DNA of 34,883 nt, taken from positions 1 through 34,883 of the forward strand of contig JAKBCR010000020.1 in NCBI GenBank assembly GCA_021807675.1. The letters are read 5' to 3'. This document shows positions 206 through 21,972 of the stretch, in pieces. A program made the position numbers and the translations under genes. Origin of the DNA: Pseudomonadota bacterium. Its GTDB lineage: Bacteria > Pseudomonadota > Gammaproteobacteria > Steroidobacterales > Steroidobacteraceae. Under the pieces are notes generated by a model, which had not been told where the DNA came from, ran no database searches, and was given only the letters and a program-made list of their open reading frames with translations. The first letter of the stretch is position 1; each line of letters begins with the position of its first letter.

Positions 206-211
206 GCGCGG

Positions 212-679
212 CTAGCGCGATCTGAGCAATCGGGCTTTGTCGCGCTGCCAGTCACGCTCCTTCTCGACCGCGCGCTTGTCGTGCTGCTTCTTGCCCTTGG
301 CGAGACCCACCTCGACCTTCGCGCGGCCATTCTTCCAGTAGAGCTCGAGCGGCACCACGGTGTACCCCTTGCGCTCGACCGCGCCGATGAGCCCGTTGAG
401 CTCGCTGTGATGCAGCAGGAGCTTGCGCGTGCGCACGGGATCGGCAATCACGTGGCTGGAAGTCGAGGGCAGCGGCGAGATGTGCGCCCCGATCAGGAAG
501 GCCTCACCGCCGCGCAGGTAGACGTAGGCCTCCTGGAGCTGGGCACGCCCTGCGCGCATGGCCTTGACCTCCCAGCCCTCAAGCGCAAGCCCGGCCTCGT
601 AGCGATCCTCGATGAAGTAATCGAAGCGCGCCTTGCGGTTCTCGGCGATGAGGCGGGGCGGGGCGGCCTTAGGCTGCAT
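212..679 (-). CDS. smpB: SsrA-binding protein SmpB (trans-translation)
   Basis: SmpB binds tmRNA and brings it to stalled ribosomes, allowing tagging of the nascent chain and release of the ribosome. The 155-residue product has the family's usual length. Family features are visible in order: N-terminal [31 protein letters not shown], a middle [18 protein letters not shown] segment, and the basic C-terminal tail with KGKKQHDKR and [11 protein letters not shown], which inserts into the mRNA channel. The frame is open upstream to 838, but family alignment places the start at the ATG with its A at 679, giving [10 protein letters not shown]. No good Shine-Dalgarno precedes it. It is divergent from ratA, with 94 bp between them. 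The tmRNA gene often lies near smpB but is not in this window. Confidence 0.95.
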
Positions 680-1538: not shown

Positions 1539-1740
1539 GCCGTTCAAAAGCAGGTGACTCAGCGGCCGTTTCCCGGTGCGCTTCCGCCGGCGTTGGCGGG
1601 TCTCCGGGAGGCCGCTCCCTGGGCCGCGAGATCAAAAGCGGTCATATGGCCGCGCTCGCGCACAAAATCGCAGGAGCGATTTTGGACGGCGAAGCCGGCC
1701 CGAAGGGCTCGGCTCAGGATGCGCCGGGCAAATCGCCGGG
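1539..1740 (-). repeat. Dispersed intergenic repeat, family A, copy 2 (inverted)
   Basis: This is an inverted copy of the family A element and fills most of the rnfH-bamE spacer (1510-1758). Read on the minus strand it has the same order as copy 1: GAGCCGAGCCCTTCGGGCCGG, then a hairpin CAAAATCGC/GCGATTTTG, TATGACCGCTTTTGATC, the core CGGCCCAGGGAGCGGC (1611-1626), GGGAAACGGCCGC, and a CCTGCTTTTGAACGG tail. The hairpin arms differ from copy 1 (CAAAATTGC there) but still pair, an apparent compensatory change. A second AATCGC/GCGAT stem follows at about 1731-1746. The spacer lies between convergent genes and holds no gene. Confidence 0.85.
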
Positions 1741-6470: not shown

Positions 6471-6576
6471 GGCGCAAAGAGCGGCATCCTGCCGCCTTGC
6501 GCGGCAGCCCCTGTGACTTTATGGGTCCCGCGGCTCAGGGAGCGGCCCTGGGCCGCTGATTTACTTGCTTTCGCAC
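6471..6576 (+). repeat. Dispersed intergenic repeat, family A, copy 3 (short form)
   Basis: This short-form family A element fills the hrcA-grpE spacer. It has a leading hairpin at 6472-6502 with arms GCGCAAAGAGCGGCA and TGCCGCCTTGCGC around a TCC loop, the core CGGCTCAGGGAGCGGC at 6531-6546, which pairs onward as GGCTCAGGG/CCCTGGGCC, and an ACTTGCTTTCG tail. It runs right up to the GGGAGG ribosome-binding site of grpE, so it would lie in the 5' leader of any hrcA-grpE transcript. No separate grpE promoter was recognised. Confidence 0.85.
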
Positions 6577-10678: not shown

Positions 10679-11503
10679 GTGGAGCGGGCGCGGGTCGCGA
10701 TCGTCGGGGTAAGCGGGCGCATGGGCCGGGCGCTGGTGCGCGCGGCATGCGAGATTCCCGCCGTACGAGTCACCGCGGCGGTCGCCTCGGCGCACAGCGC
10801 CAGCCTCGGCCGCGATGCTGGCGTGCTCGCGGGCGTGGAGCCCCTCGGTCTCGAGGTCTCGAGCGACCTGTCCGCGGCGCTCGCTCAAGCGGACGTCGCG
10901 ATCGACTTCTCTCAGCCACAGGCGACTCGCTCCAACCTGGATGCATGCCGCGCCGCACGCAAGCCATTGCTCATCGGGACCACCGGGTTCGCAGATGATC
11001 CGAGCGAAGCGGAGCTCGATGCCGCCGCGCGCGAGATTCCCCTGCTGATCGCGCCCAACACCAGCCTCGGCGTCGCGCTGCTCATGGATCTCGTGCGCCA
11101 GGCAGCCCGGGCCCTGCCGCCGGAATTCGACATCGAGATCATCGAGGCACATCACCGGCTGAAGCGGGACGCGCCCTCCGGCACCGCCCTCGCGCTGGCG
11201 CGGGCGGCTGGCGAGGGGCGGGACCTCTCGCCTCCGCAGGCCCTCTCGGGCAGCTCCGCCGCGCGGATCGGCCCTCGGCGTCAGGGGGAGATCGGGTTCG
11301 CCGTCATCCGTGGCGGCGACATCGTCGGGGAGCACACAGTGCTTTTCGCAGGCCCCGGGGAGGAGCTGCGCCTCCATCACCGGGCGGGGGACCGGGCGAT
11401 CTTCGCCCGGGGGGCGCTCAGGGCGGCGTTGTGGCTGCGGGACCAGCAGCCGGGACGCTATGGCATGCGTGATATTTTACATTATGATCAATCACTTAGG
11501 TGA
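10679..11503 (+). CDS. dapB: 4-hydroxy-tetrahydrodipicolinate reductase DapB
   Basis: DapB reduces the DapA product with NAD(P)H in the diaminopimelate/lysine pathway, feeding peptidoglycan and lysine synthesis. The 274-residue protein has the nucleotide-binding VAIVGVSGRMGRALV near residues 6-20, GTTGF at about 100-104, and the catalytic EAHHRLKRDAPSGTA, with His158 and Lys162 corresponding to E. coli His159 and Lys163. RGGDIVGEHTVLF and a C-terminal RYGMRDIL also match. It starts with GTG at 10679, 12 bp after dnaJ. The order dapB-carA-carB-greA is also known from Pseudomonas. The last codons contain a TATGAT hexamer that may be the -10 of the carA leader promoter. Confidence 0.95.
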   Translation: MERARVAIVGVSGRMGRALVRAACEIPAVRVTAAVASAHSASLGRDAGVLAGVEPLGLEVSSDLSAALAQADVAIDFSQPQATRSNLDACRAARKPLLIGTTGFADDPSEAELDAAAREIPLLIAPNTSLGVALLMDLVRQAARALPPEFDIEIIEAHHRLKRDAPSGTALALARAAGEGRDLSPPQALSGSSAARIGPRRQGEIGFAVIRGGDIVGEHTVLFAGPGEELRLHHRAGDRAIFARGALRAALWLRDQQPGRYGMRDILHYDQSLR

Positions 11504-11543
11504 TTTTGCACGGGATTTTGCGCCAGGCGGTCTCGGGATTTTT

Positions 11544-11606
11544 CATGGACACTCGGGCGCCAGGCCCGTAAAATTTGCCGGTAATCCGTGAACGGGTTAG
11601 TCCATG
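11544..11606 (+). ncRNA. Structured RNA element (three-way junction) upstream of carA
   Basis: The dapB-carA spacer can fold into a compact junction. P1 is CATGGAC (11544-11550) with GTCCATG (11600-11606), 7 bp. P2 is CGGGC (11554-11558) with GCCCG (11564-11568). P3 is TAATCCG (11582-11588) with CGGGTTA (11593-11599) around a TGAA loop, 7 bp including one G-T pair. P3 abuts P1 with no linker, so they could stack coaxially; the P2-P3 linker of 13 bases (AAAATTT inside) is unpaired. A strong terminator begins 4 bases after P1. This is the layout of a riboswitch or attenuator leader, or of a small RNA. A candidate -10, TATGAT, lies at 11483-11488 without a clear -35. I could not match it to a known class and saw no clear antiterminator. 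Confidence 0.55.
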
Positions 11607-11610
11607 CAAG

Positions 11611-11646
11611 GCGGGAGGTGTTCGAGAGAACCCTCCCGCTTTGTAT
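11611..11646 (+). terminator. Intrinsic terminator between dapB and carA
   Basis: GCGGGAGG (11611-11618) pairs with CCTCCCGC (11632-11639); inside, after a one-base bulge, GTTC (11620-11623) pairs with GAAC (11628-11631) around a GAGA tetraloop of the GNRA type. The 12-bp stem is followed by TTTGTAT. It is the clearest intrinsic terminator in the window. It either ends the dnaJ-dapB transcript or acts as the expression platform of the preceding structured element in the carA leader. Confidence 0.8.
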
Positions 11647-11649
11647 ATG

Positions 11650-11757
11650 GGCGCAAAGGGCGGCATCCTGCCGCTTTGCGCGGGCGCGGCCCTATGACCG
11701 CCTTTGATCTCCCGGCCCAGGGAGCGGCCCTGGGCCGCTTGAGGACTTGCTGTTGGC
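11650..11757 (+). repeat. Dispersed intergenic repeat, family A, copy 4 (short form)
   Basis: This short family A element lies between the terminator and carA. It has a leading hairpin at 11651-11681 (GCGCAAAG..CGGCA with TGCCGCTTTGCGC around TCC, one GG bulge), then CCTATGACCGCCTTTGATC, the core CGGCCCAGGGAGCGGC at 11713-11728 within a perfect GGCCCAGGG/CCCTGGGCC hairpin, and a GACTTGCTG tail. It would be transcribed in the carA leader. Copy 3 before grpE is its nearest relative in this window. Confidence 0.85.
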
Positions 11758-11791
11758 GAGTCGCGATAACGACGAACGAGGTTCTTACGAA

Positions 11792-12982
11792 GTGAGCGTA
11801 CCCGCTGTACTGGCTCTGGCGGATGGCACCATCTTCCGCGGCCAGTCGATTGGTGCCAAGGGCAACACCACGGGCGAAGTCGTTTTCAATACCGCATTGA
11901 CGGGGTACCAGGAGATCCTCACCGACCCGTCCTATGCCCGGCAGATCGTTACGCTCACCTGTCCGCACATTGGCAATACCGGCGCCACACCGGAGGACCT
12001 CGAGTCCACTCAGATCTACGCCGCGGGCCTCGTCATCCGCGATCTGCCGCCGCGGGCGAGCAACTGGCGTGCAAGCGAGTCGTTGGGTGAGTTCCTGGAA
12101 CGTGGGCGCGTCGTGGCCATCGCTGGCATCGACACGCGACGCCTGACGCGCATCCTGCGTGAGACCGGCGCGCAGGCCGGCTGCATCATGACAGGCGAGC
12201 AGGTGGACACCGCGGCGGCGGTCAAGGCGGCCCGCAGGTTCCCGGGACTGAAAGGCATGGATCTCGCCAAGGTCGTCACCGCCAAGCGCAGCTTCCAATG
12301 GAACGAGGGCACCGTCTGGCCCGAGAGCTCGCGAGCGCCGATCCGCTCGCATCAGCGGCTCCACGTGGTGGCTTACGACTTCGGCATCAAGCGGAACATT
12401 CTGCGTCTGCTGGCGGATTTCGGCTGCCGCTTGACCGTCGTACCGGCGCAGACGAGTGCCGAGGAGGCGCTGGCGCTCGCTCCCGACGGCATCTTCCTCT
12501 CCAACGGCCCCGGTGATCCCGAGCCTTGTGACTACGCCATCACCGCGACCCGTAAGTTTCTCGAGACGGACATTCCGGTGTTCGGCATCTGCCTCGGGCA
12601 TCAGATTCTCGGACTCGCTTGCGGCGCGCGCACCATGAAGATGAAGTTCGGCCACCACGGGGCCAACCATCCGGTGCAGGACCTGGATTCCGGGCGGGTG
12701 TTCATCACCAGCCAGAATCATGGCTTCGCGGTCGATGAGACGACGCTGCCCGCCAACGTGCGCGCCACGCATCGCTCGCTCTTCGACGGCTCCCTGCAGG
12801 GTCTCGCCCTCGAGGATCGGCCGGCGTTCGGTTTCCAGGGACATCCGGAGGCGAGCCCGGGCCCACACGATATGAAGCCGCTTTTCGAGCGCTTCAATCA
12901 TCTGATGCTGCGGCGGCTTCAGACCCAGCTCCGCCAGGCGGAGGAGCTGGCGCGCCGCCAGAGCCAGACAGCGGTGAGATAA
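11792..12982 (+). CDS. carA: Carbamoyl-phosphate synthase small subunit (glutaminase)
   Basis: CarA hydrolyses glutamine and passes ammonia through a tunnel to CarB for carbamoyl phosphate, used in arginine and pyrimidine synthesis. The 396-residue protein has the N-terminal CarA domain ([21 protein letters not shown]) and a class I glutamine amidotransferase domain with the nucleophile Cys267 in GICLGHQ and His351/Glu353 in [11 protein letters not shown], equal to the E. coli triad. The chosen start is GTG at 11792 ([12 protein letters not shown]), which matches the family; the frame is open to 11747, but those codons lie at the repeat edge. CGAGG at 11776-11780 is a modest ribosome-binding site. 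Its leader carries the structured RNA and terminator described separately. Confidence 0.96.
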
Positions 12983-13052: not shown

Positions 13053-16273
<3,221 letters not shown>

Positions 16274-16277
<4 letters not shown>

Positions 16278-16753
16278 ATCGCACTCCCATGACTCAGCGC
16301 GGCGCCGAGGCGCTGCGCGCCGAGCTCAAGCGGCTGAAGACCGAGGCGCGCCCGAGCGTCATCAAGGCGATCGCGGAGGCGCGCAGCCACGGTGACCTGT
16401 CGGAAAACGCCGAGTATCACGCCGCGCGCGAGCAGCAGGGCTTCATCGAGGGCCGCATCAAGGAGATCGAGACGAAGCTTGCGAATGCCGAGATCATCGA
16501 TCCCAGCAAGCTGACCAACACCGGCAAGGTCGTCTTCGGCGCCGTGGTCGAGCTGGAGGATCAGGACGACGGCAGCCGAGTGGTCTATCAGATCGCGGGG
16601 GAGGATGAGGCTGATGTCCGCGCGGGCCGGATTTCCATCACCTCTCCGATCGCGCGCGCCCTGGTCGGCAAGTCCGAGGGCGACATCGCCGATGTGTCCG
16701 CGCCGGGCGGCATCCGCTCCTACGAGATCGTCGCGGTACGCTTCGAAGGCTAG
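16274..16753 (+). CDS. greA: Transcription elongation factor GreA
   Basis: GreA enters the RNA polymerase secondary channel and triggers cleavage of backtracked RNA. The 159-residue protein (E. coli 158) has the N-terminal coiled coil with the catalytic tip [15 protein letters not shown] (Asp41 and Glu44) and the C-terminal FKBP-like domain ([29 protein letters not shown]). It overlaps carB by 4 bp (ATGA). Its TAG stop overlaps the stop codon of the opposing yhbY in the palindrome CTAG at 16750-16753, so neither mRNA can end before running into the other gene. Confidence 0.97.
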
Positions 16754-21795: not shown

Positions 21796-21972
21796 GCGCC
21801 GTTCGAAAGCAAGTCACTGAGCGGCCCAGGGCCGCTCCCTGGGGCGTGGGATCAAAAGCATGATTCGGCCGAGCTCGACCGATAAAATCGCTGGGAGCGA
21901 TTTTCGACTGCCGAAGGCAGGCCCGCAGGGCTCGGCGCAGGATTGCGCCGAGCAACCGCCGCAGGCGACTTC
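21796..21972 (-). repeat. Dispersed intergenic repeat, family A, copy 5 (inverted)
   Basis: This inverted family A element is in the glmM-tpiA spacer. On the minus strand it reads GCTCGGCGCA ATCC TGCGCCGAGC, then a GGGCCTGCC segment, the hairpin AAAATCGC/GCGATTTT, TCATGCTTTTGATCC, the core CGCCCCAGGGAGCGGC (complement of 21831-21846), CCTGGGCCGC, and an ACTTGCTTTCGAACGGC tail. It lacks the GGGAAACGG insert of copies 1 and 2 but keeps the AAAATCGC hairpin missing from copies 3 and 4, so it links the two forms. It ends just before the tpiA start, and no promoter or good ribosome-binding site for tpiA is visible. Confidence 0.85.

Follow-up and report, generated by a model that had tools for sequence, protein, structure and literature searches.

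A probable attenuator hairpin in the carAB leader of a Steroidobacteraceae genome, with related hairpins in other Beta- and Gammaproteobacteria

Within the literature examined, which was seen in part, attenuation by a stem-loop in the leader of carAB has so far been described for Pseudomonas only, and no description of such an element outside Pseudomonas was found in the open-licence literature, judged by title or passages. According to the passages of PMC4997734 used here, which mention an earlier prediction of carA attenuation, carA of P. syringae has one start site and an RNA end right after the terminator. Reporter fusions rose when the stem-loop was disrupted or removed, and the full-length fusion was reduced by uracil. 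For P. aeruginosa the same source reports that the stem-loop is needed for the pyrimidine response and not for the arginine response; the leader RNA, P32, is about 80 bases long in this species.

Here we describe an element in the dapB–carA spacer of the window, by which we mean the whole stretch of DNA that was analysed, 34,883 nucleotides from a Steroidobacteraceae genome (assembly GCA_021807675.1, contig JAKBCR010000020.1, positions 1 to 34,883 of the forward strand). We consider it probable that this element is a carAB leader attenuator, in which a promoter is followed by a terminator hairpin that cuts carAB transcription short. We regard it as an ordinary, well-supported control element, most likely an attenuator that is new for the genus and extends wider than the Pseudomonas work, and not a new riboswitch. 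A first-pass annotation of the window had proposed a riboswitch-like junction of three stems (P1, P2 and P3) followed by a GNRA-capped terminator.

Promoter and hairpin in the dapB–carA spacer

Relatives were sought in 99 genomes, 57 of which were other genomes of the same genus. Genome searches split the spacer in two, the element itself (11534-11650) and a dispersed repeat from about 11643 to 11765. The element or its core was found as one copy per genome in 50 of the 57; the remaining seven had no carA match reaching the N-terminus, and the upstream region is not visible there. Among 50 fetched loci (the window's own and 49 others) the element was flanked by dapB in all and by carA in 49; L007, by eye, stops inside carA. 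The genus alignments comprise 49 loci, as L122 failed the pattern and was left out of the 50; the genus match G013 was left out as well. A search of a plasmid database gave no matches.

The element contains a promoter of the form TGGACA-17/18-TArrnT, kept in 49 of 49 aligned genus loci, with a spacer of 17 base pairs (bp) in 29 of them and 18 bp in 20. The -10 box reads TAAAAT in 22 loci, TAGAAT in 16, TAAACT in nine and TAAGAT in two. A counterpart of the form TRGACC-17-TArGCT is present in 14 Pseudomonas-type loci, where the -35 box begins TGGAC in eight and TAGAC in six. From the position of the boxes in the window we infer a carA start site near 11580-11583, just before P3. A transcript from this site would lose the 5' arm of P1 and all of P2, and would keep P3 and the GC-rich hairpin that follows it (Table 1). 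A role as the 3' untranslated region of dapB, which the first-pass annotation had left open, is unlikely to be the main one because the hairpin lies after the carA promoter.

When the predicted transcript 11582-11652 was folded, the terminator hairpin was the dominant structure (z-score -7.86, with 0 of 200 shuffles as good). Stem pairing was counted in 26 sequences as the share of cells that are paired; the 12-bp terminator stem is paired in 98.4% of cells, with little variation to test. A wider comparison was made with hairpins from Beta- and Gammaproteobacteria. Hairpins with stems resembling (A)GCGRGA..TCYCGCT(T) precede carA in Woeseiaceae, Pseudomonas, Halomonas, Marinomonas, Haliea, Microbulbifer, Thiolinea, Rhodocyclaceae and other Betaproteobacteria. 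Generic hairpin scans were noisy, and representatives were then chosen by eye. We picked 60 hairpins, leaving out near-identical Pseudomonas sequences, and aligned 45; the 15 that were dropped as redundant, over-long or atypical (L066, L068, L079, L081, L090, L096, L104, L109, L137, L144, L145, L147, L151, L152 and L156) make for a selection that favours a clean alignment.

RNAalifold predicted nine pairs on the 45-sequence alignment, seven of them with compensatory changes. Over the 12-pair stem, 90.4% of cells are paired compared with 82.3% after shuffling. Double changes occur in 9 of the 12 pairs and in 51 cells, against a shuffled mean of 17 cells, and none of 500 shuffles reached the observed value of any of the three measures. 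Sliding the partner by one to three columns reduced pairing to 47-56%. The stem thus covaries where it is present; the set was hand-picked and says nothing on how frequent the hairpin is. These results indicate that the terminator hairpin is real and old, and they bear out the first-pass claim of a terminator-like hairpin before carA, which probably acts as an attenuator. The proposed GNRA cap fared less well: the window has a GAGA loop, but a GNRA loop is not conserved in the relatives. The conserved promoter, the hairpin that covaries in the wider set and the order of the two are found in the same arrangement in Pseudomonas and in other Beta- and Gammaproteobacteria.

A covariance model of the hairpin (R1) recovered the window site with an expectation value (E) of 2.5e-6, compared with 0.05 for its own reverse strand, and no other locus below E 1 among the 150 of 1994 candidates scored in the window's genome. 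Among 113 other genomes sampled from the class, 54 contained a match at E ≤ 0.1. Same-strand matches ending 9-52 bases before a carA match were found in 25 of the 113, and 51 matches lay elsewhere. At E ≤ 0.001 there were seven matches at carA (six on the same strand, the seventh on the reverse strand of a site already counted) and two elsewhere. Model seed and sample genomes may overlap, so that the alignment and the class search are only partly independent. Of the 51 matches elsewhere we fetched 20, namely the 19 with E ≤ 0.01 and one more; judged by reading frames only, 11 of these 20 follow the end of a same-strand frame by no more than about 100 bases, as ordinary terminators do. Ten proteins beside such matches were scanned, yielding bioA, PBP1A-type, NapC/NirT-type, SRP54-type and rotamase families and five proteins without a family; no gene of pyrimidine or arginine synthesis was among these ten.

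Terminator strength was assessed with a score of the d'Aubenton-Carafa type. On the + strand the score was positive in 48 of 49 genus loci, the window included, and on the - strand it was negative for the window site and for one Pseudomonas locus. Two of eight comparison hairpins, the betaproteobacterial L061 and the Woeseiaceae L036, had negative + strand scores, so not all of these hairpins look like strong terminators. As a separate observation on the tails, of which 39 from the 45 hairpins were used, 12 contain TCTG in the first 18 bases beyond the stem, compared with a shuffled mean of 2.1 and a maximum of 8 in 2000 shuffles; the motifs were chosen after looking.

Table 1. Positions in the window of the carA leader, its neighbouring genes and the adjoining repeat
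Feature	Position	Strand	Basis
dapB (4-hydroxy-tetrahydrodipicolinate reductase), gene upstream	10679..11503	+	TIGR00036, E 6.4e-75
-35 box TGGACA of carA promoter, overlapping the 5' arm of P1	11546..11551	+	pattern scan; genus alignment
-10 box TAAAAT of carA promoter	11569..11574	+	pattern scan; genus alignment
P3 (TAATCCG-TGAA-CGGGTTA), small hairpin with which the predicted transcript would begin	11582..11599	+	pair counts, folding
Probable attenuator hairpin CAAGGCGGGAGG..CCTCCCGCTTTG, 12 bp plus inner GTTC/GAAC, terminator-like	11607..11643	+	folding, covariation, model search, terminator score
Tail TATATG after the hairpin; TCTG or CTGC often comes next in relatives	11644..11649	+	comparison with relatives
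Copy of a two-hairpin repeat, dispersed and intergenic, that separates the attenuator from carA	11650..11770, ends approximate	+	genome search
carA (carbamoyl-phosphate synthase small subunit), GTG start	11792..12982	+	TIGR01368, E 1.8e-141
carB (large subunit)	13053..16277	+	NF003671, E 0
greA, next in the carA-carB cluster	16274..16753	+	NF001264, E 8.9e-72

Proposed attenuation, the sensing step and competing explanations

These observations lead us to the following scheme for what is probably the control region of the carA-carB-greA genes. RNA polymerase would start at the sigma-70-type promoter (11546-11574) and make about 25 bases of leader with the small hairpin P3, followed by the GC-rich terminator-like hairpin. 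With plentiful pyrimidines, the hairpin would stop many transcripts and leave a short RNA of about 65-70 bases; under pyrimidine scarcity the polymerase would read on into carAB. The notion that premature termination lowers carAB expression under pyrimidine excess is supported by homology to Pseudomonas, and by the same analogy the organism of the window may regulate carAB as Pseudomonas does.

Several points weigh against this scheme. The U-run is not perfect, and the tail TTTGTATAT is weak compared with the longer T-runs of Pseudomonas; a simple pattern scan of the window listed no terminator at the hairpin. By eye, no such hairpin was seen before carA in Vibrio, Aeromonas, Massilia, Caballeronia, Dyella, Moritella or Kangiella. 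Inspection of the genus and Pseudomonas leaders likewise revealed no antiterminator or alternative RNA pairing, as the first-pass annotation had already remarked of the window. The leader peptide of P. aeruginosa has no counterpart common to all genus loci: a GTG reading frame that opens in P3 is present in 34 of the 49 and missing in 15. Finally, the passages of PMC4997734 report that carA expression in P. syringae does not require P32, that quantitative reverse-transcription PCR was unchanged with arginine plus uracil, and that arginine raised the fusions. The motif CCGCC after the -10 box was considered as an antiterminator partner and rejected; its sequence varies, and it is situated at the likely start site or ahead of it.

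One further reading concerns the sensing step. A carA leader terminator common to Beta- and Gammaproteobacteria, with a sequence-constrained (A)GCGRGA stem and a recurring TCTG tail, but with no visible antiterminator and no leader peptide kept in all loci, might sense pyrimidines by a route that has yet to be described, for example through a protein or a nucleotide acting on the hairpin or on the polymerase. We put this forward tentatively and as rather unlikely.

It is possible that the hairpin is a stabiliser of the 5' end of carA mRNA or a processing signal, with constitutive read-through and no termination at all. The weak U-run in the genus, the negative terminator scores of L036 and L061 and the conservation within the genus of P3 as a 5'-terminal stem are consistent with such a function. 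We nevertheless regard it as unlikely in view of the longer T-runs that Pseudomonas, Halomonas and Marinomonas have at this position, and of the Pseudomonas 3' end and fusion data published in PMC4997734.

Another explanation takes its cue from GTTAGTCC, which is conserved just downstream of the likely start site, overlapping P3. The leader of one subclade (L028-L030, L112-L121 and L123-L130) contains a 21-bp tandem duplication, GATCCGTGTGCGGGTTAGTCC, whose upstream copy is decaying in some loci and is by eye degraded in L127-L129. A separate 8-bp duplication of GTTAGTCC occurs in L022 and L023. The downstream copy of GTTAGTCC is unchanged in the 23 sequences compared, a pattern that could mark the binding site of a DNA-binding regulator. 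Such an operator seems distinctly unlikely to us, as GTTAGTCC overlaps P3 and was seen outside the genus in L032 and L033 only, and as an operator would leave the covarying hairpin unexplained.

There is only a small chance that the short RNA is chiefly a trans-acting small RNA for which the position in the carA leader is secondary. Trans action was suggested as possible for P32 of P. aeruginosa in PMC4997734; the part that the families have in common, however, is a terminator-type stem beside carA.

The P3 reading frame raises the question of a translation-coupled attenuator, which would be one possible sensing route within the attenuation scheme. A ribosome on this frame, which runs into the hairpin, would keep the hairpin open. 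The frames often encode V-x-G-L-V-H/Q-A-R-R-E, and their two Arg codons fall at the base of the terminator stem. According to the passages of PMC4997734, P. aeruginosa is reported to have a leader peptide, whereas none was found in P. syringae. Of the genus frames, 15 of the 34 have 13 codons and stop inside the hairpin. The stop follows the hairpin in 18 others and precedes it in one, and the GTG codon is missing in the 15 remaining loci. No Shine-Dalgarno sequence was seen by eye ahead of the GTG, which lies about six bases after the likely start, and nucleotide conservation alone would give the same frame. We consider translational coupling very unlikely.

The proposed three-way junction

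The first-pass annotation had drawn P1 (7 bp), P2 (5 bp) and P3 (7 bp) as a closed junction at 11544-11606. All three stems form when this segment is folded alone (minimum free energy -24.5 kcal/mol, z -2.56, 4 of 200 shuffles as good), but the junction is not supported by comparison. The longer segment 11540-11650, comprising junction and terminator hairpin, gave z -5.24 with 0 of 200 shuffles as good; 11483-11792 gave z -4.36 with 0 of 100, and its minimum-free-energy structure does not contain P1. In the 26 sequences P2 is paired in 60.8% of cells and is not a conserved stem. P1 is paired in 94% of cells, with four of its seven pairs invariant and the second pair from the outer end unpaired in 9 of the 26 sequences. 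P3 is paired in 99.5% of cells with little variation to test, and no compensatory changes in it were found within this set.

TGGAC and GTCC, the core arms of P1, are invariant across the 49 aligned genus loci, so that the core cannot be judged there; the Pseudomonas loci permit a test. The downstream GTCC is unchanged in the Pseudomonas-type loci and is an exact partner for TGGAC in eight of them and none for TAGAC in six. Thus one of five core P1 pairs is lost without compensation in 6 of 14 loci, and the side that changes varies in the manner of a -35 box. An exact partner was present in 12 of 49 loci outside the main set with promoter-like patterns, which are patterns and not mapped promoters. 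We conclude that P1 combines a promoter element with a conserved GTCC that has some other meaning. On the pair counts and the uncompensated -35 variation in Pseudomonas we reject the three-way junction, and by the same evidence the conserved, covarying aptamer stems of a riboswitch were not found.

A riboswitch in which P1-P3 bind a ligand before the terminator has next to no chance of being correct: the fold in the window and the invariant TGGAC and GTCC speak for it, whereas the 5' arm of P1 coincides with a -35 box that has its -10 box at the right distance, P2 is unconserved, transcripts of the conserved promoter would begin after both and so lack them, and a core P1 pair is lost in six of the Pseudomonas-type loci. 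No Rfam family was at gathering score in 11483-11792, where six matches were at chance level (E 1.1 to 8.8); a tRNA outside this interval is the sole match at gathering score in the window.

The surrounding locus and known leader systems

The gene order at the locus is dnaK-dnaJ-dapB-carA-carB-greA. Most of the spacer after the attenuator consists of an inserted copy of a repeat that is dispersed through the genome. The repeat is about 115 bp long, has two hairpins and the end CTTGCTTTCG, and gave at least 41 genomic matches when 40 of 80 candidates were scored. Besides the copy before carA, the window contains copies at 6471-6557 (+), 1610-1662 (-) and 21808-21859 (-). The repeat is multi-copy also in five close relatives, and the close relative L003 has no copy at this position and a spacer of 168 bp. 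The other hairpins folded in 11650-11770 belong to this repeat and not to the leader.

In E. coli the same operon is under pyrimidine and arginine control, as summarised in PMC4997734. The E. coli system differs in its two promoters, protein factors and reiterative transcription, and the summary in that source includes no leader terminator. A carAB promoter fusion of Xanthomonas citri is suppressed by uracil and arginine (PMC4619228); no word beginning with "attenuat" occurs in the main text of that article. The rimP-leader, found in many species, is likewise a terminator in a leader, its 5' arm G-rich and its 3' arm C-rich, with a T-stretch after them (PMC2965389, in the part used here), but it belongs to another gene, and the likeness is one of description.

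The Rfam entry P31 (RF01676) occupies the same place in Pseudomonas (L050 2420-2501 (-) and L071 2405-2481 (-)). Its best match there is antisense to P32, the published leader RNA, and spans the hairpin and the gap to carA; the + strand match is weaker, at 33.1 bits under a cut-off of 40. No match to P31 at gathering score was obtained in the window. Upstream in the Pseudomonas locus L050 there is also an Rfam gyrA RNA match (208-295 (+)).

The closest counterpart is P32 itself. Differences from it are the weaker U-run of the window, a different P3 sequence, the lack of a leader peptide kept in all loci and the extra repeat insertion before carA. The two share the position in the dapB–carA spacer with carA, carB and greA downstream, one promoter with a T(G/A)GAC -35 box and a 17-bp spacer, an AAGCGGG-type terminator stem between start site and carA and, by eye, a small hairpin before that stem. 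The comparison suggests that many Beta- and Gammaproteobacteria have a related leader hairpin before carA, the gene through which arginine and pyrimidine synthesis are entered, and the hairpin alignment provides a basis for testing the signal-sensing step. As in the P32 system, the dapB–carA spacer of the window has a terminator-type hairpin that follows the carA promoter and precedes carA. One covarying alignment and model, built from both groups and hence not an independent test, show it to be homologous to that of Pseudomonas in sequence and structure.

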